Below are positions 27,613-39,794 of a stretch of DNA of 64,000 bases, piece by piece (the first letter of the stretch is position 1; the number at the start of each line of letters is the position of its first letter). The notes below the pieces were generated by a model. That model was not told the origin of the DNA. It did no database searches and saw only the letters and a list, made by a program, of their open reading frames with translations. A program made the position numbers and the translations under genes. Source of the stretch: Nocardiopsis listeri NBRC 13360 (GTDB taxonomy: Bacteria > Actinomycetota > Actinomycetes > Streptosporangiales > Streptosporangiaceae); contig NZ_BCSH01000001.1 in the NCBI RefSeq assembly GCF_001570765.1, positions 62,001 to 126,000 of the forward strand, in the 5' to 3' direction.

Positions 27613-28102
27613 CGGCCGTGAGCGATGACTACACCACCGGGAAGGACCGAGGCGGGAGACCGTTCGTCGTCGACATCGAGGAGGCGAGCGTCGAGAACAG
27701 CCACTATCGACGCACGCTGTGGACCGGAGAGCACCTACAGCTCACCGTGATGAGCATCGCCGTGGGCGACGACGTCGGCTTGGAGGTCCATCCGGACAAC
27801 GATCAGTTCCTCCGGGTGGAGCAGGGGAGTGGACGCACCGAGATGGGGCCGGCCGAGGACGATCTGAACTTCGTTCGGGAGGTCGAGGACGACGACGTCA
27901 TCATGGTTCCGGCGGGGACCTGGCACAACGTCGTCAACACCGGTGACCGGCCGTTGAAGCTCTACGCGCTCTACGGTCCGCCGGACCACGAGCCCGGCAC
28001 CGTGCATCCGGCGCACAAGGACGCGGAGAAGGACCCCAACGAGGACTGATCGGGGCACGCCGGGGGCCGACCGGGTCGCCGAGCGCCGGGCCGCTCGCCC
28101 AT
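27613..28102 (+). repeat. 490-bp direct repeat, left copy (contains cupin gene)
   Basis: Bases 27613-28102 recur at 39305-39794 with the same length; I found two substitutions (in the 3' end of the gene and just after it). The repeat covers the whole cupin gene plus 53 bases after its stop and brackets the 11.2-kb accessory segment. Confidence 0.95.
27618..28049 (+). CDS. Cupin-domain protein, copy 1
   Basis: 143 residues, single cupin barrel. Motif 1 is VGLEVHPDNDQFLRVEQG and motif 2 PAGTWHNVVNTG, so a metal site with fewer than the usual histidines is likely. The C-terminal tail is hydrophilic (PAHKDAEKDPNED). The family includes mannose-6-phosphate isomerase-like and small metal-binding proteins of unknown role. 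GTG 27618 has GGAGG 10 bases before it. The protein sequence is identical in the second copy at 39310-39741. This copy keeps the native upstream region 106 bases after the sugar porter and is followed by a strong terminator. Confidence 0.88.
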   Translation: MSDDYTTGKDRGGRPFVVDIEEASVENSHYRRTLWTGEHLQLTVMSIAVGDDVGLEVHPDNDQFLRVEQGSGRTEMGPAEDDLNFVREVEDDDVIMVPAGTWHNVVNTGDRPLKLYALYGPPDHEPGTVHPAHKDAEKDPNED

Positions 28103-28116
28103 AGTGAGATTCCCTT

Positions 28117-28152
28117 GTTCGGCGGACCGCAGTCTCCGGCGGTCCGCCGAAC
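28117..28152. terminator. Bidirectional terminator after cupin copy 1
   Basis: A perfect 14-bp stem (GTTCGGCGGACCGC / GCGGTCCGCCGAAC) with an 8-base loop, between the cupin gene and the convergent lipoprotein gene. It lies just outside the duplicated segment, so cupin copy 2 lacks it. Confidence 0.78.
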
Positions 28153-28155
28153 GGC

Positions 28156-29487
28156 TCAGGTCAGACCCACGATCTTCCTGGTGGGTCCCTGCGAGGGATG
28201 ATCCCTGATCATCACCGCGCCGGGAACCGCTTCGAAGGTGCCGGGGCCTAGGGCCAGATCGCTTTGCGCGAATCCGGTCGTGTTCGAGTAAATGTCTATC
28301 TCCACAGGTAGGTTCAGCTCGGCTTCAGCGCCGGTCTCTCCCCAGTTGAACACGGAGATCACCGGACCCTCTTCCGTTTCGGAATCCGCAGTCAGCTTCA
28401 GAAACGCACCTTCCAAAGGGAGGAAATGGTGCAGTACCGCACCCACGTCCTCCGCATCGGCAGTGGTGACCTCCCTGATTTCGCCCCTGAACTCACGTGA
28501 CTCGTAATCCACCAGTGTGCCGCCTTCGGGTGAGTCGTACCGGCGAGCCGCCAGATAGCCGTCGGGAAGCACACGCAGAAAATCGTTGTCGAGTTCGTCG
28601 GGGACTTCCTCGGAGATGACTTCTCCTTCTGCGAGGTCGAATACGGTGGTACCACGCAGCGGAGCAAAGGTCTCGTGGACCGCCACCTCACCGGCGGCGG
28701 CGTAGCTGTACGATCCCTCGAACTCGAAGTCCTTGCCCGAGTCCAACCGCCAGAGCTCATCGCCGGTGTCCGGATCGAACCCTGTCAACGCCTCATGGCC
28801 TTCACCGCAGGAGTGAACAAGCACGACCCGGGTCGGGGTAACCAAGCCCTGCTCGATCTTTAAGAGTCCCTCCCCGGAAGGGCAGGCCGATGGTGTACTG
28901 CTCCAGCCATCCCCATGCCCCTCCCACGGCGTGAGTTCGACCGTGATATTCCCACTGTCCTCGGAAGCTGAGACCATGCCGATGTCGGTGACCAAACCGG
29001 CCTCTTCCAAGGTCAGGCTCTCTTCGCCGCCATTGCCATGCTCGAACACCTGCAGTTCCTCACCGCTGTCAGTGTCCAGAACTGTGGCCCAGTCGTTAGC
29101 GCTCACCACCGTGTGGGACCCGTCAGGGGAGATGGCGACATCGGCGACCGAACCGGCGACCCGGTAGCTCCACAGATGCTCTCCAGTGGCGGGATCGATC
29201 CTCGCCGCACCATCACTCAGATGCAGGACGGCCCCGGTAGGGGCGGACAAGATCTCTTCCACACTGCTGTCCTCGGGGGCATTCCAGGTCCAGGACACCT
29301 CGGAGACCGAGCTAGGGACCGGGAGCTCGGACAGGCGTCGGTCGGTCGTGTCCTGAACGATCTCGTTGCCGCCGAACGGTTCGCTCTCCACGGGATTGGA
29401 GCCAGAAGTGATCGCGCACCCTGACGTCATAAGTACAACCAGGGACACCAGGGCGACTGGCGCCCGAAAGTTGCTTGATCTCGTCAC
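28156..29487 (-). CDS. Beta-propeller (PQQ-like repeat) lipoprotein
   Basis: 443 residues. The signal peptide ends in a lipobox, LMTSGC, with the lipid-bearing Cys24. The mature part has repeated strand motifs of PQQ-like/WD-type propellers: ARIDPATGEHLWSYRVAG, TVLDTDSGEELQVFEHG, TGFDPDTGDELWRLDSG. No quinone-binding set or enzyme motif is evident, so a structural or binding role at the outer face of the membrane is likely. It is the last gene of a minus-strand set with the 831-aa and WXG100-sized proteins, with a 55-base gap before it, and could be that system's surface-anchored partner (inference). Confidence 0.78.
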   Translation of the reverse strand: MTRSSNFRAPVALVSLVVLMTSGCAITSGSNPVESEPFGGNEIVQDTTDRRLSELPVPSSVSEVSWTWNAPEDSSVEEILSAPTGAVLHLSDGAARIDPATGEHLWSYRVAGSVADVAISPDGSHTVVSANDWATVLDTDSGEELQVFEHGNGGEESLTLEEAGLVTDIGMVSASEDSGNITVELTPWEGHGDGWSSTPSACPSGEGLLKIEQGLVTPTRVVLVHSCGEGHEALTGFDPDTGDELWRLDSGKDFEFEGSYSYAAAGEVAVHETFAPLRGTTVFDLAEGEVISEEVPDELDNDFLRVLPDGYLAARRYDSPEGGTLVDYESREFRGEIREVTTADAEDVGAVLHHFLPLEGAFLKLTADSETEEGPVISVFNWGETGAEAELNLPVEIDIYSNTTGFAQSDLALGPGTFEAVPGAVMIRDHPSQGPTRKIVGLT

Positions 29488-29542
29488 TTTAGGAAGCTCA
29501 CAAACTTGGATCTATGTGGATTGGTCTGTTTGGTGACGCGAA

Positions 29543-32038
29543 TCATTCATTAATCTTTCTCCTGGCGTTATTATAAGCTTCCGTGTAATTCTCTTTTGCG
29601 CTTTCCGGCGAGGCCCCATCTGGAAGAGTTCCGTTTTCTTCGACAATTTGCCAGGAGTCGCGAAGTGTGTTTGCAATATCGCTGGATTTAACATCCCACT
29701 CATTTATGCTCGGTGGAATATAATCATTTCCGTTCGTGTCGGTTCTTACCATTCCAGGATTGACCTCCTTGAGTGACTCCATGACATCAGGATTACTTTC
29801 CGCCGATGCCCTTATCAGGCTCAGTTGTGTGGACTCGATGATTTCCCATTCACCAGTATTGTTGTTGACCTGCTGTTCCGCGGCGAAGGCCTCTACGTTG
29901 AATTCTTCCTTGCTGTAGATTTTTATAGCTTCTGCGGCGACGGAGCTTCCTGGGATCGGAATCTCCGAAAGCGTAGCTCCGAACATGTCGACACCGTATC
30001 CAGTGACCTTGTTCTGATAATTTGCGGCGTTTTCGCTGTTCCTTTCTCGGTGCGTGGCCTCCTGTTCGAGTGCCACGTCCACGAGGCCGCGCAGGACTCC
30101 AGATCTCGCTGCGCCATCGGTAGAGATTAGCCCGTCTTCAGATGCATTGTGCGAAAATTTCTCGAGGGTCTCATGCCCGTGCAGGAGTGTATCGGCGTAA
30201 ACCCGGGAAGCCGCGTCTCCGTCACCCATGATTTGTTGGACAAAACTCTGTCTGGAATTCATGTCCATTTGGAGCCCTTCCTCAGGGCTCCAGTAGCTAG
30301 GGTTGTCTTTGCCTGATTGGCTGGCAACGGGGATCGAGTGCTCGCTTCCAAATTCATCAATATAGGCGGAGAAGAGTTCTGACCATTCCCAAGCGATATC
30401 CGGATTAAGGTGGCCCGCGGATGCATCCTCCCATACCATGTTGACTGTATCGCCATTCTCGTCCACTACCTCGCCATCGACTGAGTGGCCGGTGGAAGAA
30501 ATTGAATTATTGAACGTGGGTTCAGCGAAGAGATCAACGAAACTTGCCATCGCCTCTGCTGCTTTCTTGCTTTCAAATTCGTCGCCGTCAGCCTGTTTCC
30601 ATATCCAGTCGGTCAGGCCCGAGGCGGCACTTCCATCGTCATCCCAGTCATGGGTGTACACGGCGCGGAAGGTCATCTCGGCATCCAACCCGTGGGTGGG
30701 ATGCTTGTAGGTTCCCTCTCCGGTGATGATCGAGTGGTTAGCGTCCTTATTGCGAGCGGAAACATCGATGAGGGTTTCGTGCTCGTTATTGAAGAAGAGG
30801 GGATGACCTCGGTAGTCGTCTTCATCGTCAGGGTCAATGTTCCAGATATCCAACTCGTTCGCGACGGTCTGAGTAAGGTTCACGGAGAACTGTTCACCAC
30901 CGTGCAGGGATGGATTAGCATGCCCGAACATGTTGGCGAGTGGAGTTACCTCCGGATACCAGTCACGACGATCGTATCCATTTTCTTCATTCGGCCCTTC
31001 GACTACTTTTCTTACACTCTCAGGGATATTGTCGTAGCCACCCAGAATGCTTTCGTCAGAAAGAGCAAGGAGGCCTTCACCCAAGGCTCCAAGAAGATCC
31101 TGTGATGTTTTGATATCGATATTTTCGTTCTCGGATAGGAGGTCGGAAACGCCGAGCACCCCGGGGAAGTCCGAACCTTCCCCACCAGCCTCCTCAAGAG
31201 CTTCATAGAAGCTGGTAAGGAAATCGAGTTCCTCAGACGTCATGGTGCCGCCGTTTTGCTGTCGGTCCGCCGCTAAGTAGCCAATGTTGGTGAGTAGAGC
31301 GATGGTCTCGCCAACATCACCATCGAATCCCTCGGGATCGTTCACGAGTTCAACCACTTCAGCAGCCATATCGTCGGGTTCCGCGTCAATTGGGATGGCC
31401 TCTACGTCCCCGCCAAGGTTGAAGTAGGACCAGTTTATTTGTCCCTTGTCAATCAGGCGCTGAACGGCCTCGGGCGTGGGTCCATCCTTCAGGTTCTTGC
31501 TTATATCTTCAGACTGAGAAAGCAATTCTTCATAGGCGGTTGCTTCCTCTATTACAAGCTCTGCCCTGAGTTCATTAAGAGCTTCTATCGCCTTCTCGGC
31601 GGGGGATTTTTGCCAGACGAAAAATCCATCCATCTTTTGAAGGTCATCTTCGTAAGCTGGTGCCTCTCCGTTCCAACGATTAATTATTCTACGCCTTTCC
31701 TGCTTGTAATCGCTGACGCAGTCGGCCCACTCCTCGGTGATCGCGGCGCAGAATCGAATGCTTGCCGATACTTCCATCCACACGGCGAGGTCCTCAGCGT
31801 TCACCATTGATATGTCCCACTTGATAACTTCGGTGAACTCCTTCGCTGCACTGTCGAATTCCTCATTCATTCCATCAGTGCGGCCGAGGATCCTTCTCTC
31901 GAGCATGTAGAGATCTTCAGCTCCCGTGCGAATCACTGAGACCTTCATATGGGGGTCATAATTCATCTCAAGAGCGACCGGTCCAACTTTTACTGCTTCA
32001 ATGGTTTCGCCATTGTAGGTTACATTGCTGGCGGACAA
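29543..32038 (-). CDS. 831-aa protein of unknown function, putative type VII-associated effector-like protein
   Basis: 831 residues, acidic and mostly helical, with no signal peptide or membrane segment. The N-terminus has a strand-rich start (VTYNGETIEAVKVGPVALEM) and helices resembling a WXG100-like coiled region (MVNAEDLAVWMEVSASIRFC); the middle has NEHETLIDVSARNKDANHSI, and the end is helical (RDSWQIVEENGTLPDG). It recalls large actinobacterial proteins encoded beside WXG100 proteins (DUF6571-like), but I cannot confirm the family or find a toxin active site. Codon use is AT-richer than the chromosome. The WXG100-sized gene lies 67 bases upstream on the same strand. Confidence 0.7.
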   Translation of the reverse strand: MSASNVTYNGETIEAVKVGPVALEMNYDPHMKVSVIRTGAEDLYMLERRILGRTDGMNEEFDSAAKEFTEVIKWDISMVNAEDLAVWMEVSASIRFCAAITEEWADCVSDYKQERRRIINRWNGEAPAYEDDLQKMDGFFVWQKSPAEKAIEALNELRAELVIEEATAYEELLSQSEDISKNLKDGPTPEAVQRLIDKGQINWSYFNLGGDVEAIPIDAEPDDMAAEVVELVNDPEGFDGDVGETIALLTNIGYLAADRQQNGGTMTSEELDFLTSFYEALEEAGGEGSDFPGVLGVSDLLSENENIDIKTSQDLLGALGEGLLALSDESILGGYDNIPESVRKVVEGPNEENGYDRRDWYPEVTPLANMFGHANPSLHGGEQFSVNLTQTVANELDIWNIDPDDEDDYRGHPLFFNNEHETLIDVSARNKDANHSIITGEGTYKHPTHGLDAEMTFRAVYTHDWDDDGSAASGLTDWIWKQADGDEFESKKAAEAMASFVDLFAEPTFNNSISSTGHSVDGEVVDENGDTVNMVWEDASAGHLNPDIAWEWSELFSAYIDEFGSEHSIPVASQSGKDNPSYWSPEEGLQMDMNSRQSFVQQIMGDGDAASRVYADTLLHGHETLEKFSHNASEDGLISTDGAARSGVLRGLVDVALEQEATHRERNSENAANYQNKVTGYGVDMFGATLSEIPIPGSSVAAEAIKIYSKEEFNVEAFAAEQQVNNNTGEWEIIESTQLSLIRASAESNPDVMESLKEVNPGMVRTDTNGNDYIPPSINEWDVKSSDIANTLRDSWQIVEENGTLPDGASPESAKENYTEAYNNARRKINE

Positions 32039-32105
32039 GGTAGAGAATCCTTCTCTGTCGAATTGGGAGATGATTGAATCTATGGTTTATCGTGGGTGAT
32101 GGTTC

Positions 32106-32429
32106 TCAGAAGTTGACCTCGGGCATCGATTTCCAGGACTCGCTGAATTCATCGCTTGCCTCATGGTCGTTTTCGGCGATATTGGAAGCTCCTGCCTGGA
32201 TATTGTTTGCCAGTGCTATTCCATTCTGTTGTACCTTTTGGATTTCAGGTTCAAGATCATTTTTGAAATGTACATAGCCGCTGGCGATCCACCCGGTGGA
32301 GGTTGAAAGATCATCCATTAGCAGAGAAAAAGTCTCCTCCAAGCCGACCATTGCCTCCGCCATGGCTTCCGCATGGGCACCTTTTTCCACGGCCGCCCAG
32401 GTGTTCGCTCCGGCTTCGTTCGTGCTCAT
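32106..32429 (-). CDS. WXG100-sized helical protein (ESAT-6-like)
   Basis: 107 residues, the right size for WXG100/ESAT-6-like type VII secretion substrates and predicted to be two long helices: AEAMAEAMVGLEETFSLLMD, then a central TGWIASG turn, then FKNDLEPEIQKVQQNGIALA. The turn is W-I-A rather than the exact W-x-G, and no secretion motif of the Y-x-x-x-D/E type is obvious. It leads a minus-strand set with the 831-aa protein, so the pair may form or export together. No EccC or other secretion component lies in the window. Assignment is from size, fold and context. Confidence 0.6.
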   Translation of the reverse strand: MSTNEAGANTWAAVEKGAHAEAMAEAMVGLEETFSLLMDDLSTSTGWIASGYVHFKNDLEPEIQKVQQNGIALANNIQAGASNIAENDHEASDEFSESWKSMPEVNF

Positions 32430-32760
32430 GGCTAATCCTTCTCGAAACTAACTGGTCGCCATGAGGCTGGCGACCATGGGAAAGGCCGATTGTATAAATG
32501 AAACCAGATAATCGCTCTGGTCTTGGGGTGGAGTGGCGCGAATCATGCTACCGACCCTGAGCCCGTGAGCAGGGGTAACTGGCTCGTCACTCCTCCTCAG
32601 GTTATCCTCATAAGATATACCAGTGGCGAGAGTGAGTCTTTTCCGCCCTGACGATGCTGGTCACAGCTGTGAAGCGGTCGCTCCCAACCATCCGTGACAG
32701 CAAGAATCCCTGCTGGGTCAGGACTGTTTCATTCTCAGTAAGCGGTGATGTTGACGCTGA
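32430..32760. other. Upstream region of the WXG100-like operon, no gene seen
   Basis: About 330 bases with no protein-like frame. It should contain the promoter for the minus-strand operon starting at 32429 and ends at the remnant of an ISAs1-type transposase. No clear promoter elements or repeats were recognised. Confidence 0.45.
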
Positions 32761-33304
32761 TCACAGCAACCCGATCACATCCAGCGGACGAGTGAACGCT
32801 TCATATGACACCCACCGGATCGCGTCGGGCACTGTGTCCTGCCCCAACCGGCGCAAGAACAACAAAGCGAAAGCGCAATACGGGCCATGCCCTGATTCTC
32901 GCTTCCTCCCGACACCTGTCGGGTTCAGCGTGTCCAAGATCCAGGGTCAAGGCCCGTCTGGGTGTGCAGAGCATCGGCGGTGATCACGACGCTGGCCAGG
33001 TCTACGCCCGCCAGCAGGACGGTCAGGGCCCGGTACGGCGAAACGTCGCCTCGTCAGCGGCTCCTCGGCCCATGCCCAGGGTGGTGAGTGTGTGGGTGGT
33101 GGTCTGGGCGTCCCATTGGCCGATCGCGGTGAACCCTTTGGCTCCGGCCAGGACTGCGCAGACCGCTACCGCGATCAGTGCGCTCAGCCGGTGGCGTCGT
33201 CCGCGGGGTTTGAGTGGGTCGGGCACACGTGTGAGGACGTGGAGAAGGTGGTCCTGGCGTGAGAGGGGTTCGATGATGAGTTCGCCGGGGTGGGACGATG
33301 GCAT
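32761..33304 (-). pseudogene. ISAs1-family transposase remnant
   Basis: Three pieces of one transposase read in different frames. The N-terminal part (MPSSHPGELIIEP to RGRRHRLSALIAVAVCAVL and ADEATFRRTG) ends at 33023. A middle piece LLAGVDLASVVITADALHTQ follows in another frame at about 32920-33010, and the C-terminal piece WVSYEAFTRPLDVIGLL ends at 32761. An intact ISAs1 transposase is about 370-400 residues, so large parts including most of the DDE core are deleted. It is inactive. Confidence 0.82.
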
Positions 33305-33613
33305 ACGCGTGCGTGTTCCTCGGAGAGATGGCAGCGTGAAGAACTTCCATCCAACCGGGTCGAGCACGCCCGCACCTGCTTGTCCCACCCACGAAGACGT
33401 AGGTTACATCCCCATCATCTGACTTTGCCGGGACCCTGGACCACGGCTCTACCCGCTGTCCAAGCACCCACGCCGGACCGGGCTTGTAGAGCACATACCG
33501 TGAGCCTTTGTCATCCTGCCTCTCGGAGCTGAAGGATGACTACACCTCGGGTGATCTGCCCAGCCCGATGCGTGCAGCATCGCAACCGGCGCAGGACGTG
33601 GCGGTGTCAATTT
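33305..33613. other. Non-coding spacer between IS remnants
   Basis: About 310 bases between the ISAs1 remnant and the left end of the IS3 element. It probably includes the damaged outer end of the ISAs1 element. No gene, long repeat or promoter could be supported. Confidence 0.4.
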
Positions 33614-33652
33614 GGTATGTACTGAGTTTGGTGGAGCCGTGTTTCTGGATTC

Positions 33653-33934
33653 TCAGGCCACGGTGCTCGGTTTCTTGTTCTCGAACTCTATGGGTGTCAG
33701 CCAGCCGATCGCTGAGTGTCGGCACTGTCGGTTGTGGAAGATCTCCAGGTACTCAAAAATCGCGTTGGCCAACTCTAATCGGGTCCGCCACCTGCGCCGG
33801 TCCAGCAGTTCGACCTGCATCCGCGACCAGAACGACTCGATGACCGCGTCGTCGTAACAATTCCCGATCGACCCCATCGAGGGCACCAACCCGGACTCCT
33901 TTGCCCGGCGAGTGAAGGCCCAGGAACCGAACTG
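33653..33934 (-). pseudogene. IS3 orfB C-terminal fragment
   Basis: The fragment begins at FGSWAFTRRAKESGLVPSMG and contains the second half of the IS3 DDE integrase: GSIGNCYDDAVIESFWSRMQ, with the catalytic Glu in VIESF, and IFEYLEIFHNRQCRHSAIGW. Its N-terminal half lies more than 4 kb away at 38338 onwards, separated by the IS30 insertion. Confidence 0.85.
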
Positions 33935-33941
33935 GGCGAGT

Positions 33942-34114
33942 TCAACCAGTCGTTGCGACACCGGGCTGTTGTAGTGAGCGTAGCTGCTCGGCGAAGACCT
34001 CGGCCGGAGTCCGCCATCCCAGGACCTTACGGGGCCGATTGTTCACCACCAGGGCAACAGCTTCGAGGTCCTCAAACGACCACCTGGACAGATCAGTGCC
34101 CTTCGGGAAGTACT
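33942..34114 (-). pseudogene. IS30 transposase C-terminal fragment
   Basis: Continues the transposase cut at 37030: YFPKGTDLSRWSFEDLEAVA and RPRKVLGWRTPAEVFAEQL, ending GVATTG. This is the normal end of IS30-type transposases after the catalytic Glu motif NENTNGLLRQ. Confidence 0.88.
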
Positions 34115-34703
34115 GAGGTGATCTCGTGTGTCCTGAACGTGGAGGTTGCTGATGTAGGTAAAGCATGCTGAAGCGGTGCTACGTGGAGGATGAAGGATCT
34201 TGGCCCTTCGGGACCGTCCGGCGGTGGATGGCTCCAAACCGCCTCATGCTGCGTTAGCTGAAGACTGTCGTGGTGAGCGATGAGGAAAAGGCGCACAAGA
34301 TGTGTCAGGTGGGGACCGGGAAGGCGAGCGCAAGCGAATCGTTGACGACGTGTCGAAACCTCATCAGTTGACATCAGAACCGGGGCGTGAGATTGGCTCC
34401 GGGATGAGTCTGGCGGGTGGTCCGCTTTCTGGCCAGATGGTGTCCGGCATATAGACGACGTGAGCCCGGTCTGCGGCCTCTGCGTGGAACAGGAGAAGGC
34501 GTGCCGCGATACAACCTCGAAGAGGCGAAAGGGAGAATCCCAAGCGGGTCACACCGTAAGGGACTGAGTACCGATTGCGCGGTGCGCTGGCGGACCGGCT
34601 TGTAGTAGCACGGAAGCCCCTGTAACGGGGGTGGAGCGAAGGGGCCGGGTCGTTCGTGGCTGTGTTCGTTCGATCAACCAGACAGTGGTCTGGGAGGAGT
34701 CGC

Positions 34704-35966
34704 GTGGGCGAGCTGAAATCACCGGACAAGCCGTTTGATATTCCAAAGCAGGCTGTCTGGGAGGCGTGGAAGAAAGTCAAGGCGAACCGGGGTGCGCCGG
34801 GGGCGGACGGGGTGTCGCTGGAGGAGTTCGAGTCCGATCTGAAGAATAATCTGTACAAGATCTGGAATCGGATGTCCTCAGGCAGCTACTTCCCACCGCC
34901 GGTGCGTGCAGTCGAAATCGGTAAATCCCATGGTGGAGGATCTCGAATCTTGGGGATCCCCACCGTGGCGGACCGGGTTGCGCAGACGGTGGTGGCCGAG
35001 GTGTTGGAGGTAAGAGCGGAACCGCTGTTCCATCCCGACTCCTATGGTTATCGCCCGCAGCGCGGAGCGCTGGATGCGGTGGCCACCTGTCGGCAGCGTT
35101 GTTGGAAGAGCGACTGGGTGATCGACTTGGATATCCAGAAGTTCTTTGACACTGTGCCGTGGGAACTGATGGTCAAAGCAGTTGGTGCGGTCTGTGATCT
35201 GCCGTGGGTGTTGCTGTATGTGAAGCGGTGGTTGGCCGCGCCTGTGGTGCAACCGGACGGTGGCGTGCAGCAGCGGAACCGGGGAACCCCGCAGGGGTCT
35301 TCGGTCTCTCCGATCCTGGCGAATCTGTTCTTGCACTTCGCGTTCGATGTGTGGATGGCGCGGGAGTTTACCGGCGTTCGATTCGAGCGCTATGTGGATG
35401 ATGTAGTAGTGCATTGTATCGACGAAAACCAGGCGTATCACGTGCTGGGTGCCGTCCAGGAACGGATGGGTCAGGTTGGGTTGGAACTGCATCCGGAGAA
35501 AACACGGATCGTTTATTGCAAGGACAGTAACAGGGCCGGTGAGTATGAGTGCACCGAGTTCACGTTCTTGGGGTACACGTTCCGGCCGCGTGGTGTGCGC
35601 CGGAGGGACGGGAAGATGTTCACCGGCTTCAATCCTGCGGTTAGTAAGGACGCCTTGAAAAAGATGAGTGAACGGGTGCGTTCCTGGCGTCTGCACAAGT
35701 GCACTCAATTTTCTGAAGCGGATCTCGCGCGATGGATCAATCCGATTGTGCGGGGTTGGATGGGATATTACGGTGCGTTCTACCGTTCGGCGCTCTATCC
35801 TCTCCTGGCGCGCATCAACGCCTATTTGATGCGGTGGCTGCGGAAGAAGCACAAGCGGTTGCGGGCCAGGAAAAAGGCTCATGAGGCATGGGTAAGGGCC
35901 GTGGCGCTACGCCGTGGATTCTTTGCTCAATGGCGATGGGTCACCTGGGTTCCGCGTGTTTGGTGA
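34704..35966 (+). CDS. ltrA: Group II intron-encoded reverse transcriptase/maturase
   Basis: 420 residues. Reverse transcriptase blocks are visible: GAPGADGVSLEEFESDL, ILGIPTVADRVAQTVV, PDSYGYRPQRGALDAV, VIDLDIQKFFDTVPW, GTPQGSSVSPILANL, then the active site YVDD (230-233) where most family members have YADD, and LELHPEKTRIVYCK. The maturase domain X is IVRGWMGYYGAFYRSALYPL. No C-terminal HNH endonuclease is seen. It aids intron splicing and retrohoming. GTG 34704 has GGGAGGAG at 34692; the frame extends upstream without a better signal. The intron core and ORF look intact. Confidence 0.93.
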   Translation: MGELKSPDKPFDIPKQAVWEAWKKVKANRGAPGADGVSLEEFESDLKNNLYKIWNRMSSGSYFPPPVRAVEIGKSHGGGSRILGIPTVADRVAQTVVAEVLEVRAEPLFHPDSYGYRPQRGALDAVATCRQRCWKSDWVIDLDIQKFFDTVPWELMVKAVGAVCDLPWVLLYVKRWLAAPVVQPDGGVQQRNRGTPQGSSVSPILANLFLHFAFDVWMAREFTGVRFERYVDDVVVHCIDENQAYHVLGAVQERMGQVGLELHPEKTRIVYCKDSNRAGEYECTEFTFLGYTFRPRGVRRRDGKMFTGFNPAVSKDALKKMSERVRSWRLHKCTQFSEADLARWINPIVRGWMGYYGAFYRSALYPLLARINAYLMRWLRKKHKRLRARKKAHEAWVRAVALRRGFFAQWRWVTWVPRVW

Positions 35967-35978
35967 TCAGAACGATAA

Positions 35979-36012
35979 GAGCCGTGTAACGGGAGACTGT
36001 TACGCACGGTTC
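35979..36012 (+). ncRNA. Group II intron domain V
   Basis: A 34-base hairpin starting GAGCCGTGTAACGG and ending GTTACGCACGGTTC. The AGC catalytic triad near the base, the GAGA-type loop and the length are typical of domain V, the catalytic heart of the intron. Confidence 0.93.
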
Positions 36013-36052
36013 TGTGAGGGCCGGAGGGGGAAGTTCCCTCCGGCTACTCGAC

Positions 36053-36872
36053 AGCGAGTTTGCTTCTCGATATTGGTCAGAGCCAACGCGGCTTGCACGA
36101 TCATCCCGATCTTGGACGGACTCATCGTGGTGTGGCGCAGCGCTCTCCACCGGCCGGTGAGTACCGCCATCGCGCGCTCGCCGATGCACCGCAGGCCGCG
36201 TAGGAGTCGGTTGTGGGCTCGGTTGTCGGCATGCCAGCGGCGCTCGTCGACCTCGGGCGGACGCTTGATCGGGGTGCGCACACCCACCCCGGCGCCCTCG
36301 TAGCCAGAATCGGCCAACACCACCAGCCCCTCGGTGGTGGCTTTGTGTACAAGCGGGAACACGTGTAGGCGTGCGGCGGTGATATCGGCCGTGGATCCGG
36401 GCTCGACCTCCGACACCCACAAAGGTTCTCCGCGAGCGTCGGACAGGAACTGGATGTTGCCGCCGTGGCGGTGTTTGTGGCCGCTGTACCAAAGGTCGCT
36501 CTCGCCGGTGGGGCCAGGCTCCGAACAACGGTCACAAGGAAACAGTTTTCCGTCCAGGATCAGGGGGTCTTCGGGGCTCAGACGGGCGTGTTCGAGGACC
36601 TCGTGCAGGTCGGGAGCCTGGTCGGCCAGCACGTCGACACCCTCGTCGACGTAGCGGTAGCCGGTGGCCCGGGAGATGTGGTTGTCCCTGGCCAGAGCGT
36701 CGATGGCCGTGGCATCGCGAAACCACCGCAAGATCAGGACCGCCTGCTTGTAGCAGGTCAGAGAGCGGGTGCCCGTACGGGTGCCGCGGCGCCGACGTTC
36801 GGTGTTCAGCAGGGCCGAAAGATGCCAAACGGTGGCCTGGTCCACGTCGAGGGTGGCAGTATAGGAAACCAC
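36053..36872 (-). CDS. IS5-family transposase (stop codon split by intron)
   Basis: 273 codons from ATG 36872 to the intron junction, with an HTH region and a DDE core: Asp107 in LILDGKLF, Asp188 in VLADSGYEG and Glu232 in IGERAMAVL. In the intron-less form the gene ends ALTNIEKQTR and TGA, the T at 36053 and the GA at 34125-34124. With the intron, translation would run on for about 17 codons into intron sequence. Otherwise it is intact and may still be functional, but the element's left end is split. Confidence 0.85.
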
Positions 36873-37029
36873 GTGGAGCCTTTCATGGTGGTCCGGTGCA
36901 GATTCGACACCTCGCCTTCTACCTGGGGCTCCACGCCTGTGTCAGGGGAACGAAAGTTCACCCATGGATGCACCCCTCGTCTTGATTGTCGGTTTCCTGC
37001 TGATTCCCAGTCACTGAGATCACCTCACT

Positions 37030-38290
37030 GGCGCAGAAGCCCGTTCGTGTTCTCGTTCGTCGGCCTCTGCCAAGGCGAATACGGATCGGCGAAGAACACT
37101 TTCGTCCCGCTCTCGAGCATGAACTGGGCGTGTGCGGACAGCTCCTTCCCACGATCCCAGGTGAGGGTCTTTCGGAGCTGCTCGGGCAGTTTCGCCATCG
37201 ACACCGTCAGCGCTGCGTTCATCGCGACGGCACCGTAGCCACCGAGCGAGGGACCGTTCTTCACCGTCGGTTTCTCACCCCAGCCCTCCAACCGGGGCAG
37301 GTGCACCAGCAGCGTGGATCGGCTGCTGCGCTCCACCAGCGTGCCGATCGCGGACCGGCCCGTCCCGATGATCAGATCCCCCTCCCAGTGCCCCGGGACC
37401 GCACGATCCGCAGCTTCGGCGGGGCGCTGCGAGAGGACGACATCGGCGGTGACATGTCCTTGCGGCTTGTTGCGTGCCCGCTCTCTGGGAACCCGCAGCG
37501 CTCGCCCGGTGCGCAAACACGCGACCAACTCACGCTTGAGCGCGCCGCGCCCCTCGATGAACAGGGACTGGTAGATCGCCTCATGGCTGATACGCATGGA
37601 CTCATCATCAGGGAAATCGAGCTTGAGCCGTTGGGAGATCTGCTGCGGGCTCCACGCCAAAGACCACCGCCGATCCTGCCGACACGGCTTGTTCAGCCCC
37701 CTCCACGTTGGTGCCTGGGGGCCGACGACGATCGTGCCGTCGGGCCGGCGGACGCTCCCGGCGAGCCGTTCCTGCACGTACTCGCGTAGCCGATCGTTGT
37801 CCATGAGCTTGGCTGTCTTGGGGCGCTTGCCTGCCTGCTGCGCCTTCCACTGCGCCACCAAGGCCCGGTACTCGGACTTCCCGCCCCTGGTCGCTGCGTT
37901 ACGGCGCAGCTCACGCGAGATCGTTCCCGCATCGCGTCCGATCCTGCGGGCGATCTCTCGCACGCCACATCCTTGGGCGCGCAACAGCGCGATCTCCTCG
38001 CGTTCGACGAACGACAGATAGCGGCCCGTGGGCTCGTCCAGGCTGATCGGCGGCATGCCGCCAGCGTGACGGAACCAACGGACCCCGACCGGCCATGACA
38101 CACCAACAGCCTGCGCGGCCTCTACCGTGGTCACGCCCGACGCGATACGCCGCCAGAAGTCCCGCTGCACCGTACGAGAGGGCTCTGGGCGGCCAGGTGA
38201 GCGCATCGGCGGCCGTAGTGCCCGATCCGCTGCCCACTGCCGCCGTGCTCCCGCAGGTACCTGGGGTATCTGCTTCTTCTTGAGTCCCAT
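37030..38290 (-). pseudogene. IS30-family transposase, N-terminal part
   Basis: About 420 residues from MGLKKKQIPQ. Helix-turn-helix regions (TTVEAAQAVGVSWPVGVRW and VREIARRIGRDAGTISRELR) are followed by the DDE core: GHWEGDLIIG, TWDRGKELSAH and the Glu region NENTNGLLRQ. The frame then stops in the inserted IS5 end. The last 55 or so residues lie at 33942-34114. The catalytic triad is complete but the C-terminus is missing. Confidence 0.88.
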
Positions 38291-38337
38291 CGCACACCTT
38301 TGCAATCAAGGTGTTGCGACGACCAGTTGAATCCGCC

Positions 38338-38931
38338 CTGGACGCCGTGATCGGAGTGGACCACCGTCCCCGGAGCCGGTTGGCGGTTATCAATGGCCAT
38401 GCCCAGCGCGTTCGTGGTCAAAGCCGCCGTGGGCGAGGAGTCGATCGCCACCCGACCACACGCCGCGAACACACATCCAACACCACCGTGCAATAGACCT
38501 TGCCCTCGCGGGTGGAGTGCTCAGTGATATCGGTAACCCAGAGTTGATCCAGGCCCTGACGGGCGCACTGGCGATCCACCAGGTCAGCCGAGACCAGGTC
38601 CGCACTCGCACACCGCCACTTCGGACGACCCGTAACACCTTTGAGGCCGGCCCGGGACATCAGCATCGCCACGGTCCCTGACAGAGCTTCATCCCTCGCC
38701 CGAGGGTGAGTTCAGTGTGCACCCGCCGCACCCCGTAGACGCTGTTGGAGGCGGCGTGGATCTGATGGATGGCATCGGTGGGCAAGCACGTGCCGGATCG
38801 AGCGGGCCGAGGGACCGCGGTCACGCCAGGCGTAGAACCCCGACTCCGATACGCCCAGTACCCGGACGGCGACCTGGACCGGCTGCCCCTCGGAGGCCAT
38901 CACCGCGATCGCCTCGAACCGTCTTTTGGGG
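38338..38931 (-). pseudogene. IS3 orfB N-terminal part, frameshifted
   Basis: Pieces in different frames: RFEAIAVMASEGQPVQVAVR and VLGVSESGFYAWRDRG at the start, LDQLWVTDITEHSTREGKVY with the first catalytic Asp, and VAIDSSPTAALTTNALGMA to HSDHGVQ, with the second Asp, at the IS30 junction. At least two frameshifts or small deletions separate them. Expression would need a -1 shift from orfA at the CCCCAAAAG run (38923-38931), the usual IS3 strategy. Confidence 0.8.
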
Positions 38932-39219
38932 CACCACCTTCCCTAACAGCTCACTGGCCCGGCGGTGGATCGCCAGTTCAGCCTCCAGCTCGGCAATGCG
39001 CTTATTCGCCGCTGCCAGCTCGGTCTTTTCGGTGCTGGTCAGGCCCAGGGCCAGACCTCGGTCGATGCGGTCCTGGCGACGCCAGGCGTAGATCGTCTCG
39101 CTGCTGATATCCAGATCGCGTGCCACGTCCGCGACGCTGCGTCCGGATTGGACCAGGTCCAAGACCTTGCGCCGGAACTGGGCAGGGTATCCACGACGTC
39201 CCACGATGCCCTCCTCCAA
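38821..39219 (-). CDS. IS3 orfA (transposase helix-turn-helix subunit)
   Basis: Up to 132 residues, the last part past the frameshift site probably not used. GYPAQFRRKVLDLVQSGRSV and DLDISSETIYAWRRQDRID form the helix-turn-helix, and KTELAAANKRIAELEAELAI the leucine-zipper-like coil before ASELLGKVV. TTG 39219 or a GTG a few codons later could be the start. It lies at the 5' end of the IS3 element. Confidence 0.82.
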   Translation of the reverse strand: MEEGIVGRRGYPAQFRRKVLDLVQSGRSVADVARDLDISSETIYAWRRQDRIDRGLALGLTSTEKTELAAANKRIAELEAELAIHRRASELLGKVVPQKTVRGDRGDGLRGAAGPGRRPGTGRIGVGVLRLA

Positions 39220-39304
39220 GGGTCACGTGGTCCCAGGATCCAAAACCGGCTCCGAAAAACGCGGGACACACCAGAGCCTCCATTACGCCCGGCACGAGAC
39301 GGTA

Positions 39305-39794
39305 CGGCCGTGAGCGATGACTACACCACCGGGAAGGACCGAGGCGGGAGACCGTTCGTCGTCGACATCGAGGAGGCGAGCGTCGAGAACAGCCACTATC
39401 GACGCACGCTGTGGACCGGAGAGCACCTACAGCTCACCGTGATGAGCATCGCCGTGGGCGACGACGTCGGCTTGGAGGTCCATCCGGACAACGATCAGTT
39501 CCTCCGGGTGGAGCAGGGGAGTGGACGCACCGAGATGGGGCCGGCCGAGGACGATCTGAACTTCGTTCGGGAGGTCGAGGACGACGACGTCATCATGGTT
39601 CCGGCGGGGACCTGGCACAACGTCGTCAACACCGGTGACCGGCCGTTGAAGCTCTACGCGCTCTACGGTCCGCCGGACCACGAGCCCGGCACCGTGCATC
39701 CGGCGCACAAGGACGCCGAGAAGGACCCCAACGAGGACTGATCGGGGCACGCCGGGGGTCGACCGGGTCGCCGAGCGCCGGGCCGCTCGCCCAT
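39305..39794 (+). repeat. 490-bp direct repeat, right copy (contains cupin gene)
   Basis: Second copy of 27613-28102, offset by exactly 11692 bases. It starts 32 bases outside the right end of the IS3 element. The identity begins at CGGCCGTGAGC, five bases before the start codon, and ends at GCTCGCCCAT. Confidence 0.95.
39310..39741 (+). CDS. Cupin-domain protein, copy 2
   Basis: Encodes the same 143-residue protein as 27618-28049; the one coding difference found is silent. The native ribosome binding site (GGAGG) of copy 1 is not part of the repeat, and here the start is preceded by ACGAGACGGTACGGCC and IS3 sequence, so expression is doubtful. It stands 120 bases from the convergent GntR gene. 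It may be the original or the extra copy; sequence alone does not decide. Confidence 0.8.
   Translation: MSDDYTTGKDRGGRPFVVDIEEASVENSHYRRTLWTGEHLQLTVMSIAVGDDVGLEVHPDNDQFLRVEQGSGRTEMGPAEDDLNFVREVEDDDVIMVPAGTWHNVVNTGDRPLKLYALYGPPDHEPGTVHPAHKDAEKDPNED

Follow-up and report, generated by a model that had tools for sequence, protein, structure and literature searches.

An IS30-family element nested among mobile DNA in Nocardiopsis listeri belongs to a clade that probably targets the active-site codons of IS3-type transposases

A 64,000-nt stretch of the Nocardiopsis listeri NBRC 13360 genome, a draft assembly of 154 contigs, was analyzed (NZ_BCSH01000001.1, positions 62,001-126,000; hereafter the window, on which all coordinates are based). 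It holds a nest of four mobile elements, which from the inside outward are a group II intron (34126-36052), an IS5-family insertion sequence (IS; 34115-37026), an IS30-family element (33935-38337), and an IS3-family element (33614-39272). Our findings suggest, with a probability of roughly three in four, that the IS30 element represents a clade of dedicated transposon hunters spread across Actinomycetota and Proteobacteria. Their homing site would be the DNA in which IS3-type transposases encode their second catalytic Asp. Such a target could not drift without killing the enzyme of the prey, and each host entered would be disabled; together with introns guided to IS ends, these elements would turn genomic IS nests into a food chain whose links can be predicted.

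Recurrent insertion at one codon boundary

Split by the IS5-family element, the IS30-family element lies on the minus strand as a left part (33935-34114), with the C-terminal end of the transposase and the left terminal repeat, and a right part (37030-38337), with the transposase start at 38305 and the right terminal repeat. The left part is supported by the rejoined reading frame and by alignment with locus L127, and the right part by the same uninterrupted relative (93.3% identity) and by profile NF033563, which confirms an IS30-type transposase (190.9 bits, cut-off 80) together with Pfam HTH_38. The terminal inverted repeats read GGCGAGTTCAACCAG... and GGCGGATTCAACTGG..., with CTG on either side. 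Target duplications in the IS30 family measure 2-3 bp, and here the CTG copies stand at 33932-33934 and 38338-38340. The left copy is the Q codon (CAG on the minus strand) of HSDHGVQ/F in the IS3 transposase, and the HSDHGV codons (38341-38358, minus strand) abut the insertion at the same codon boundary as in relatives. We take the Asp of the HSD motif to be the second catalytic Asp of the IS3-type enzyme.

Around the relatives fetched through family and phylum searches (loci numbered with the prefix L), the same flanks recur, with HSDxGxQ codons on one side and [QEN][FY]xS codons on the other, which are the two sides of one IS3-type transposase motif. An end could be read at 48 distinct loci, and 40 of these carry the motif at one end or both, at the codon boundary HSDxGxQ/[FY]xS and mostly in IS3-type transposases; complementary halves flank the element on both sides in 18, the HSD side alone was recognized in 10, and the other side alone in 12. 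This count includes the window, drops L076, and takes loci with identical 40-nt flanks once. The IS30 ends were placed by fit to the known terminal repeat; a generic inverted-repeat search had misplaced several, with odd lengths. The HSD side was scored strictly, as H-[STA]-D (F was accepted for H) with its first base exactly 21 nt ahead of the IS end, and the non-HSD side by a pattern that covers the first seven codons.

At 200,000 random positions in the fetched loci, the pattern for the HSD side was found at 0.05% and that for the other side at 0.10%. With the exact offset, the HSD-side pattern fits 27 of the 78 ends, and with every shift of 1-9 nt in either direction it fits 0 of 78; none of the 146 control ends (15 IS5, 28 IS3, and 103 intron ends) shows the HSD motif. 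A 3-bp duplication accompanies the element in 27 of 37 two-ended loci, and where the motif is present, the duplicated triplet is the Q codon or the codon in its place, for instance CAG, CAA, GAA, or AAC.

The interrupted genes were identified by reading the flanks as protein. At an E-value of 1e-5, 20 of 26 HSD-side flanks match the NCBIfam IS3 transposase profile and 13 match the IS481 profile (26 of the 28 such flanks were scanned, the window and L246 being left out). The alignment of these 26 flanks ends at HSDRGxQ, and among the IS3 matches, six had their end positions read (E 2e-5 in one case), each of which ends at residue 285 or 286 of the 369-position profile. As support only, a two-sequence IS3 profile of poor quality, with one row in the wrong frame, gave 10 of 12 edge-reaching alignments that start at one position.

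Position, duplication, and recurrence of the insertion are read directly from the loci. With high probability, the preferred target of the clade is the DNA coding for HSDxGxQ/[FY]xS around the second catalytic Asp; the element inserts exactly behind the Q codon, which is doubled as the 3-bp target duplication, and the host transposase is split between the catalytic D2 and E. From these features we infer a mode of binding and a benefit. Most likely, the IS30 transposase would recognize DNA to the left and right of the Q codon and make a 3-bp staggered cut. The payoff may lie in a host that is dispensable, mobile, and often multi-copy, the loss of which would cost the cell little, and in a target held constant by its role in encoding an active site.

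A set of plasmid loci extended these observations. From 70 listed rows, 18 named plasmid loci were hand-picked for taxonomic spread and fetched, of which 17 were scored (L264 was left out), and the motif was present in 14. At 59% protein identity or above, 14 of 15 loci carry it, compared with neither of the two at about 40% identity (Mesorhizobium and Lichenicola). The motif-positive hosts are Streptomyces, Rhodococcus, Gordonia, Glutamicibacter, Cupriavidus, Massilia, Caballeronia, and Bradyrhizobium; in L253 (Rhodococcus koreensis) the motif is present at the DNA level alone, the frame being interrupted by a stop. The specificity therefore appears to belong to this clade rather than to IS30-like elements at large, and appears to cross the phyla Actinomycetota and Proteobacteria; by these loci, it would have arisen somewhere between about 40% and 59% protein identity.

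The nest and its empty sites

The sequence-only reading from which this analysis started had described the four-level nest, and profile matches, rejoined sequences, and empty sites in relatives agree that all four elements are present at the coordinates given above. Once the intron is taken out, the IS5-family element is whole and its transposase again ends in TGA; removing the IS5-family element and one ACT returns the IS30 transposase to a single frame through NGLLRQYFPKG; and removing the IS30 element and one CTG lets the IS3 orfB read HSDHGVQFGSWAF. The empty sites that this reading had proposed to look for were found in uninterrupted relatives at all three inner junctions. The IS5 element stands without the intron in L090, L092, L093, and L103 (89-92% identity across the entire element, with the junction bases read), the IS30 element without the IS5 element in L127 (1488 of 1488 positions aligned, gap-free), and the IS3 element without the IS30 element in L156-L159 (87-90% identity across the entire element, with a gap-free junction). 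The nest is therefore real, and we regard it as highly probable that at least two of its junctions arose by directed targeting. By itself the nest would be an uncommon but ordinary pile-up, and its value lies in exposing the target-specific IS30 clade; the target-directed junctions, as well as a larger insertion that surrounds the nest, had been missed in the earlier reading.

Cut off by the intron, the first 11 nt of the left terminal repeat of the IS5-family element (GAGGTGATCTC) occupy 34115-34125, as read from the sequence and its relatives, and the remainder (36053-37026, minus strand) contains the transposase, with its start at 36872, and the right terminal repeat. The transposase scores above the cut-off for Pfam DDE_Tnp_4 and, for NCBIfam IS5_4, below it (92.7 bits, cut-off 140). 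As in the IS5 family, short inverted repeats (GAGGTGATCTC at both ends) are accompanied by a short duplication, ACT in the window (34112-34114 and 37027-37029); three relatives have AGT, ATT, and ACT, and L103 has none. This ANT pattern is presumably that of the ISL2 subgroup of the IS5 family. In the few relatives that were read, the insertion of the IS5 element into the IS30 element shows no specificity beyond the ANT duplication. Within the 154 contigs of N. listeri, none of the four elements was found to have another close copy; five partial IS5-like matches of 66-80% identity are present in the same assembly.

The group II intron at the IS5 end

The intron at 34126-36052 (plus strand, antisense to the IS5 transposase) is apparently complete, as judged from Rfam matches and shared ends. 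RF01999 (group-II-D1D4-2) matches at 34192-34310 with 92.1 bits and RF00029 (Intron_gpII) at 35977-36052 with 62.5 bits, so that the conserved catalytic RNA domains of group II introns are present, along with their ends, GTGYG... and ...CGAC, which are common to most relatives. Its full-length reverse transcriptase/maturase (34656-35966, plus strand; 436 aa, with YVDD) is supported by Pfam and matches TIGR04416 with 395 bits (cut-off 300); profile searches gave no match to an endonuclease domain in this protein.

The pairing between intron and exon points to an RNA guide that reads the IS end. Exon-binding sequence 2 (EBS2, ACCTCA, 34358-34363, plus strand) pairs at 6 of 6 positions with exon bases -12 to -7 (TGAGGT), and EBS1 (GAGATT, 34389-34394, plus strand) at 6 of 6, including one G-U, with bases -6 to -1 (GATCTC). 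The EBS1 position was the best of all intron columns tested against the six bases preceding the insertion; its pairing with the intron-binding sequence (IBS1) averages 5.13 of 6 over 67 introns, compared with 2.42 ± 0.16 when the exons are shuffled, and the EBS2 position averages 3.59 pairs with exon bases -12 to -7 over 69 introns, compared with 2.22 ± 0.12. In the window, the 12-nt EBS2-EBS1 guide pairs fully with TGAGGTGATCTC, a target composed of the 11-nt terminus of the IS5 element and the adjoining T of its target duplication. An identical 12-mer is present at the opposite IS5 terminus, and wherever the duplications read ANT, the T is found at both ends. RNA-guided reverse splicing, with the EBS2-EBS1 guide pairing to the IS end, would thus have brought the intron into the IS5-family element, which would have been immobilized once its terminal repeat was broken.

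Alternatively, the intron may have reached the IS5 end by chance, without any special tie to IS ends, and we give this explanation somewhat less than even odds. A single copy of the intron is known in the N. listeri genome, and 49 of 53 intron sites fall below a 16-nt inverted-repeat match. An inverted copy of the junction of at least 16 nt lies nearby at the other four (the window, L178, L035, and L040), compared with 98 of 7950 random positions, a modest excess, also without the window (3 of 52; about 0.03 by a hand Poisson estimate); moreover, some of the sites in this count share an end (L004 and L045). These points weaken the case for guidance to IS ends. On the other side stand the guide, which matches the IS boundary at 12 of 12 positions with a 12-mer that occurs exactly three times in the 5.69-Mb genome, two of them at the ends of this IS5 element, and L178, the best DNA relative of the intron, whose insertion site is an inverted repeat next to a transposase gene of the IS3 family. 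Between the inverted copies in L178, L035, and L040 there is a transposase gene of the IS3, ISL3, or IS701 family. Repeated homing of this intron group into the same IS5 element is unsupported, as the IS5 element was present in none of the 80 fetched intron relatives.

Two further arrangements were seen among the intron relatives. In L004 (3518-5565) and L045 (854-4831), group II introns apparently lie within other group II introns and share a similar internal sequence (CAAACCGC), and in L040 (1990-7362, Streptomyces sp. NBC_01549) two different group II introns stand at the inverted repeats that flank one IS701-family transposase gene.

Order of insertion

The order of insertion had been held to be known from the nesting. 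The nesting stands, but a fixed order does not follow from it, because an element can transpose together with whatever has inserted in it, and an inner element could have entered its host before the host moved. Since the IS30 and IS3 elements each have their transposase gene broken by an inner insertion, an outside-in series would be the simplest order, if an unproven one. Among the fetched loci there was neither an intron inside an IS5 copy like that of the window nor an IS5 element inside an IS30 copy; fragments of such elements lie near one another in L095, L099, and L188. In L188 (357-2616), a related intron (70%) is located about 200 nt from an IS5-like fragment (75%).

IS30-type elements in IS3-type elements at the same site were found in L160 (83% and 87% identity to the IS30 and IS3 elements, respectively), in L132 (70% and 67-73%), and, by partial matches, in L129 and L137, so that this pair could in principle have arrived together. 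The pair in L132 (490-3082) is a separate nest with the same codon boundary and no clean duplication. The inner layers had also been taken as probably recent, which goes too far, since no other close copy of any layer was found in the assembly and the best near-full-length relatives reach DNA identities of about 93% for the IS5 element, 93% for the IS30 element, 90% for the IS3 element, and 75% for the intron.

The IS3 layer and the surrounding insertion

The outermost element is divided into a left part (33614-33934, minus strand), which holds the C-terminal half of orfB (FGSWAF...), and a right part (38341-39272, minus strand), with orfA and the N-terminal half of orfB ending in HSDHGV. OrfA and orfB, with an rve domain and the HSDxGxQ motif, are present; NF033516 matches all four fragments, each below the full-length cut-off, and the rejoined element aligns uninterrupted over positions 1-1253 with four relatives. 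The transposase profile and these aligned relatives identify the element as an IS3 derivative. With TG..CA ends counted, it would span 33613-39273.

The target duplications of the nest had been called intact, which is correct for the two inner IS junctions (ACT and CTG) and fails for the outermost element. Although IS3-family elements produce duplications of 3-5 bp, none is present at 33614/39272. Several frameshifts interrupt orfB, and five indels are private to the window, occurring in none of the four aligned relatives; because of these indels and the missing duplication, we regard the element as a decayed copy, in which an adjacent deletion or rearrangement may have removed the duplication.

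Beside its right end lies a 28-bp sequence (39273-39300), which by eye also stands beside the start of another transposase-like frame in L125, L126, and L166. It adjoins 12 of 30 distinct IS3 ends, the two of the window included, and loci in which an IS3 element abuts it are L124, L157, L158, L159, L167, L170, and L176; one end in L176 shows the apparent inner side of a 28-bp terminus. No target duplication was found in the IS3 copies with the 28-mer whose two ends were both read by eye. A true IS3 end at 39273-39300 was rejected, since the alignments with relatives have 33614 and 39272 as their exact limits and neither side of the IS3 element in L156 carries the 28-mer. The 28 bp probably represent the end of a different IS3-type element, and the window-type IS3 element seems also to favor the end of another IS, a possible further targeted link.

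The nest is part of an 11.2-kb insertion (28103-39304) bounded by two copies of a cupin gene region (27613-28102 and 39305-39794, both plus strand), a 490-bp direct duplication with 2 mismatches. In the relative G122 (L108), the flanks meet at a single cupin copy, which identifies the segment as an insertion. It contains a lipoprotein-like gene, recognized by eye, an EspA-like TPR protein with a neighboring small protein, a transposase remnant, and the nest. The EspA-like protein (831 aa, Pfam TPR_23) and its neighbor (107 aa, of WXG100-like size and without a Pfam match) occupy 29543-32429, and part of this segment has a distant match in contig 25 of the same genome. A separate molecule misjoined into the chromosome by the assembler, through the 490-bp repeat and from short reads, would give the same picture, and the draft state of the 154 contigs and the near identity of the cupin copies (2 of 490 positions differ) are compatible with such an error. 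We nevertheless consider it unlikely, since 490 bp could be spanned by paired reads and no replication or transfer gene was recognized among the larger frames of the insertion. The nest itself is independent of whether the 11.2-kb segment is integrated.

Evidence against a dedicated target

Several observations count against a target preference of the IS30 clade. The motif is missing from 8 of the 48 loci (L127, L141, L144, L146, L152, L238, L245, and L251), among them the closest DNA relative (L127, 93%), which has no duplication and a partial QY side only; in L141 the motif is visible by eye, out of register. Clean 3-bp duplications at other sites in L144, L146, and L251 indicate that off-target insertions occur and that the preference is not absolute. 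In L231, L237, and L242, the HSD-type string lies outside IS3 transposases, without an IS3 profile match (within a SPASM-domain gene in L237), so that what is recognized would be DNA and not exclusively a transposase target. The patterns were written after the family loci had been seen, which leaves the plasmid loci as the only fresh test; these were hand-picked, and one of them, in Mycolicibacterium rufum, lacks the motif at 81% identity.

An ordinary pile-up, in which insertions in essential genes are lost and survivors gather in dispensable mobile DNA without any choice of target, would account for transposase families being the commonest domains beside introns of this group (101 flanks, 51 sites) and for the absence of specificity in the IS5-in-IS30 step. 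Survivor bias, however, cannot account for a single codon boundary being hit across different transposases (27 of 78 ends, compared with 0 at neighboring offsets). Nor does it fit the IS5, IS3, and intron ends (0 of 146) or the motif match in the SPASM-domain gene, which is no transposase; we thus consider a pile-up very unlikely as the cause of the recurrent target. That all these insertions descend from one old composite copied many times can be largely dismissed: three G479 loci with identical flanks (L232, L247, and L250) show that an IS30 copy is sometimes moved or spread along with its host, and in L160 an IS3 element related to that of the window (87%) is entered at the same site by an IS30 end that is likewise related (83% over 106 bp), but identical 40-nt flanks were counted once, the remaining hosts are diverse (mean column identity 31%), both orientations are seen, and the 3-bp duplications vary (CAG, CAA, GAA, AAC, and others). 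Target-directed insertion by the IS30 clade remains our preferred reading.

Relation to known elements and biological meaning

The closest parallel that we found to the IS30 element is ISLxc3 of Leifsonia xyli, an IS30-family element similar to ISLxx5. Its printed terminal repeats (GGCGGATTCTAGTGGTCGTTGCAACA) closely resemble those of the window element, a likeness judged from the printed repeats alone. An NTG duplication was reported for two of its copies, and its authors detected no conserved target site (PMC2516522), whereas the window element has a target in the HSDxGxQ/[FY]xS coding stretch of IS3-type transposases. The IS1202 family, described as target-specific for pdif/dif sites (PMC10132070), likewise combines an IS with a fixed target, but that target is a recombination site and not the catalytic motif of a rival. 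In the literature searched, which consisted of open-license papers, there was no report of IS30 elements that target IS3 transposases.

For the intron, the principle of insertion at an IS end is already known, with RmInt2 and ISRm17 as the precedent: RmInt2 uses both inverted repeats of ISRm17 in Sinorhizobium (PMC5894124). RmInt1 targets an IS transposase gene in ISRm2011-2, its insertion blocks the spread of that element according to a review, and its protein has no endonuclease domain (PMC5894124, PMC4238363), just as none was matched in the protein of the window intron. Compared with what these sources describe, the window intron differs in being actinobacterial, in its IS5-family host, in a guide reaching one base into the target duplication, and in relatives that lie in repeats around IS3-, ISL3-, and IS701-family genes.

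Nested IS elements are usually taken as random pile-ups, whereas here one landing site is predictable to the codon, and across phyla. Inteins and group I introns favor conserved active-site sequences, and with the IS30 clade this homing logic would be seen in a DDE insertion sequence. Annotation of split transposases would gain a target rule from these findings, the site specificity of a small DDE transposase would become open to a testable model, and the intron part would carry the RmInt2/ISRm17 idea to a second bacterial phylum. By disabling the elements into which it inserts, the IS30 clade may also represent a natural control on the numbers of IS3 elements.

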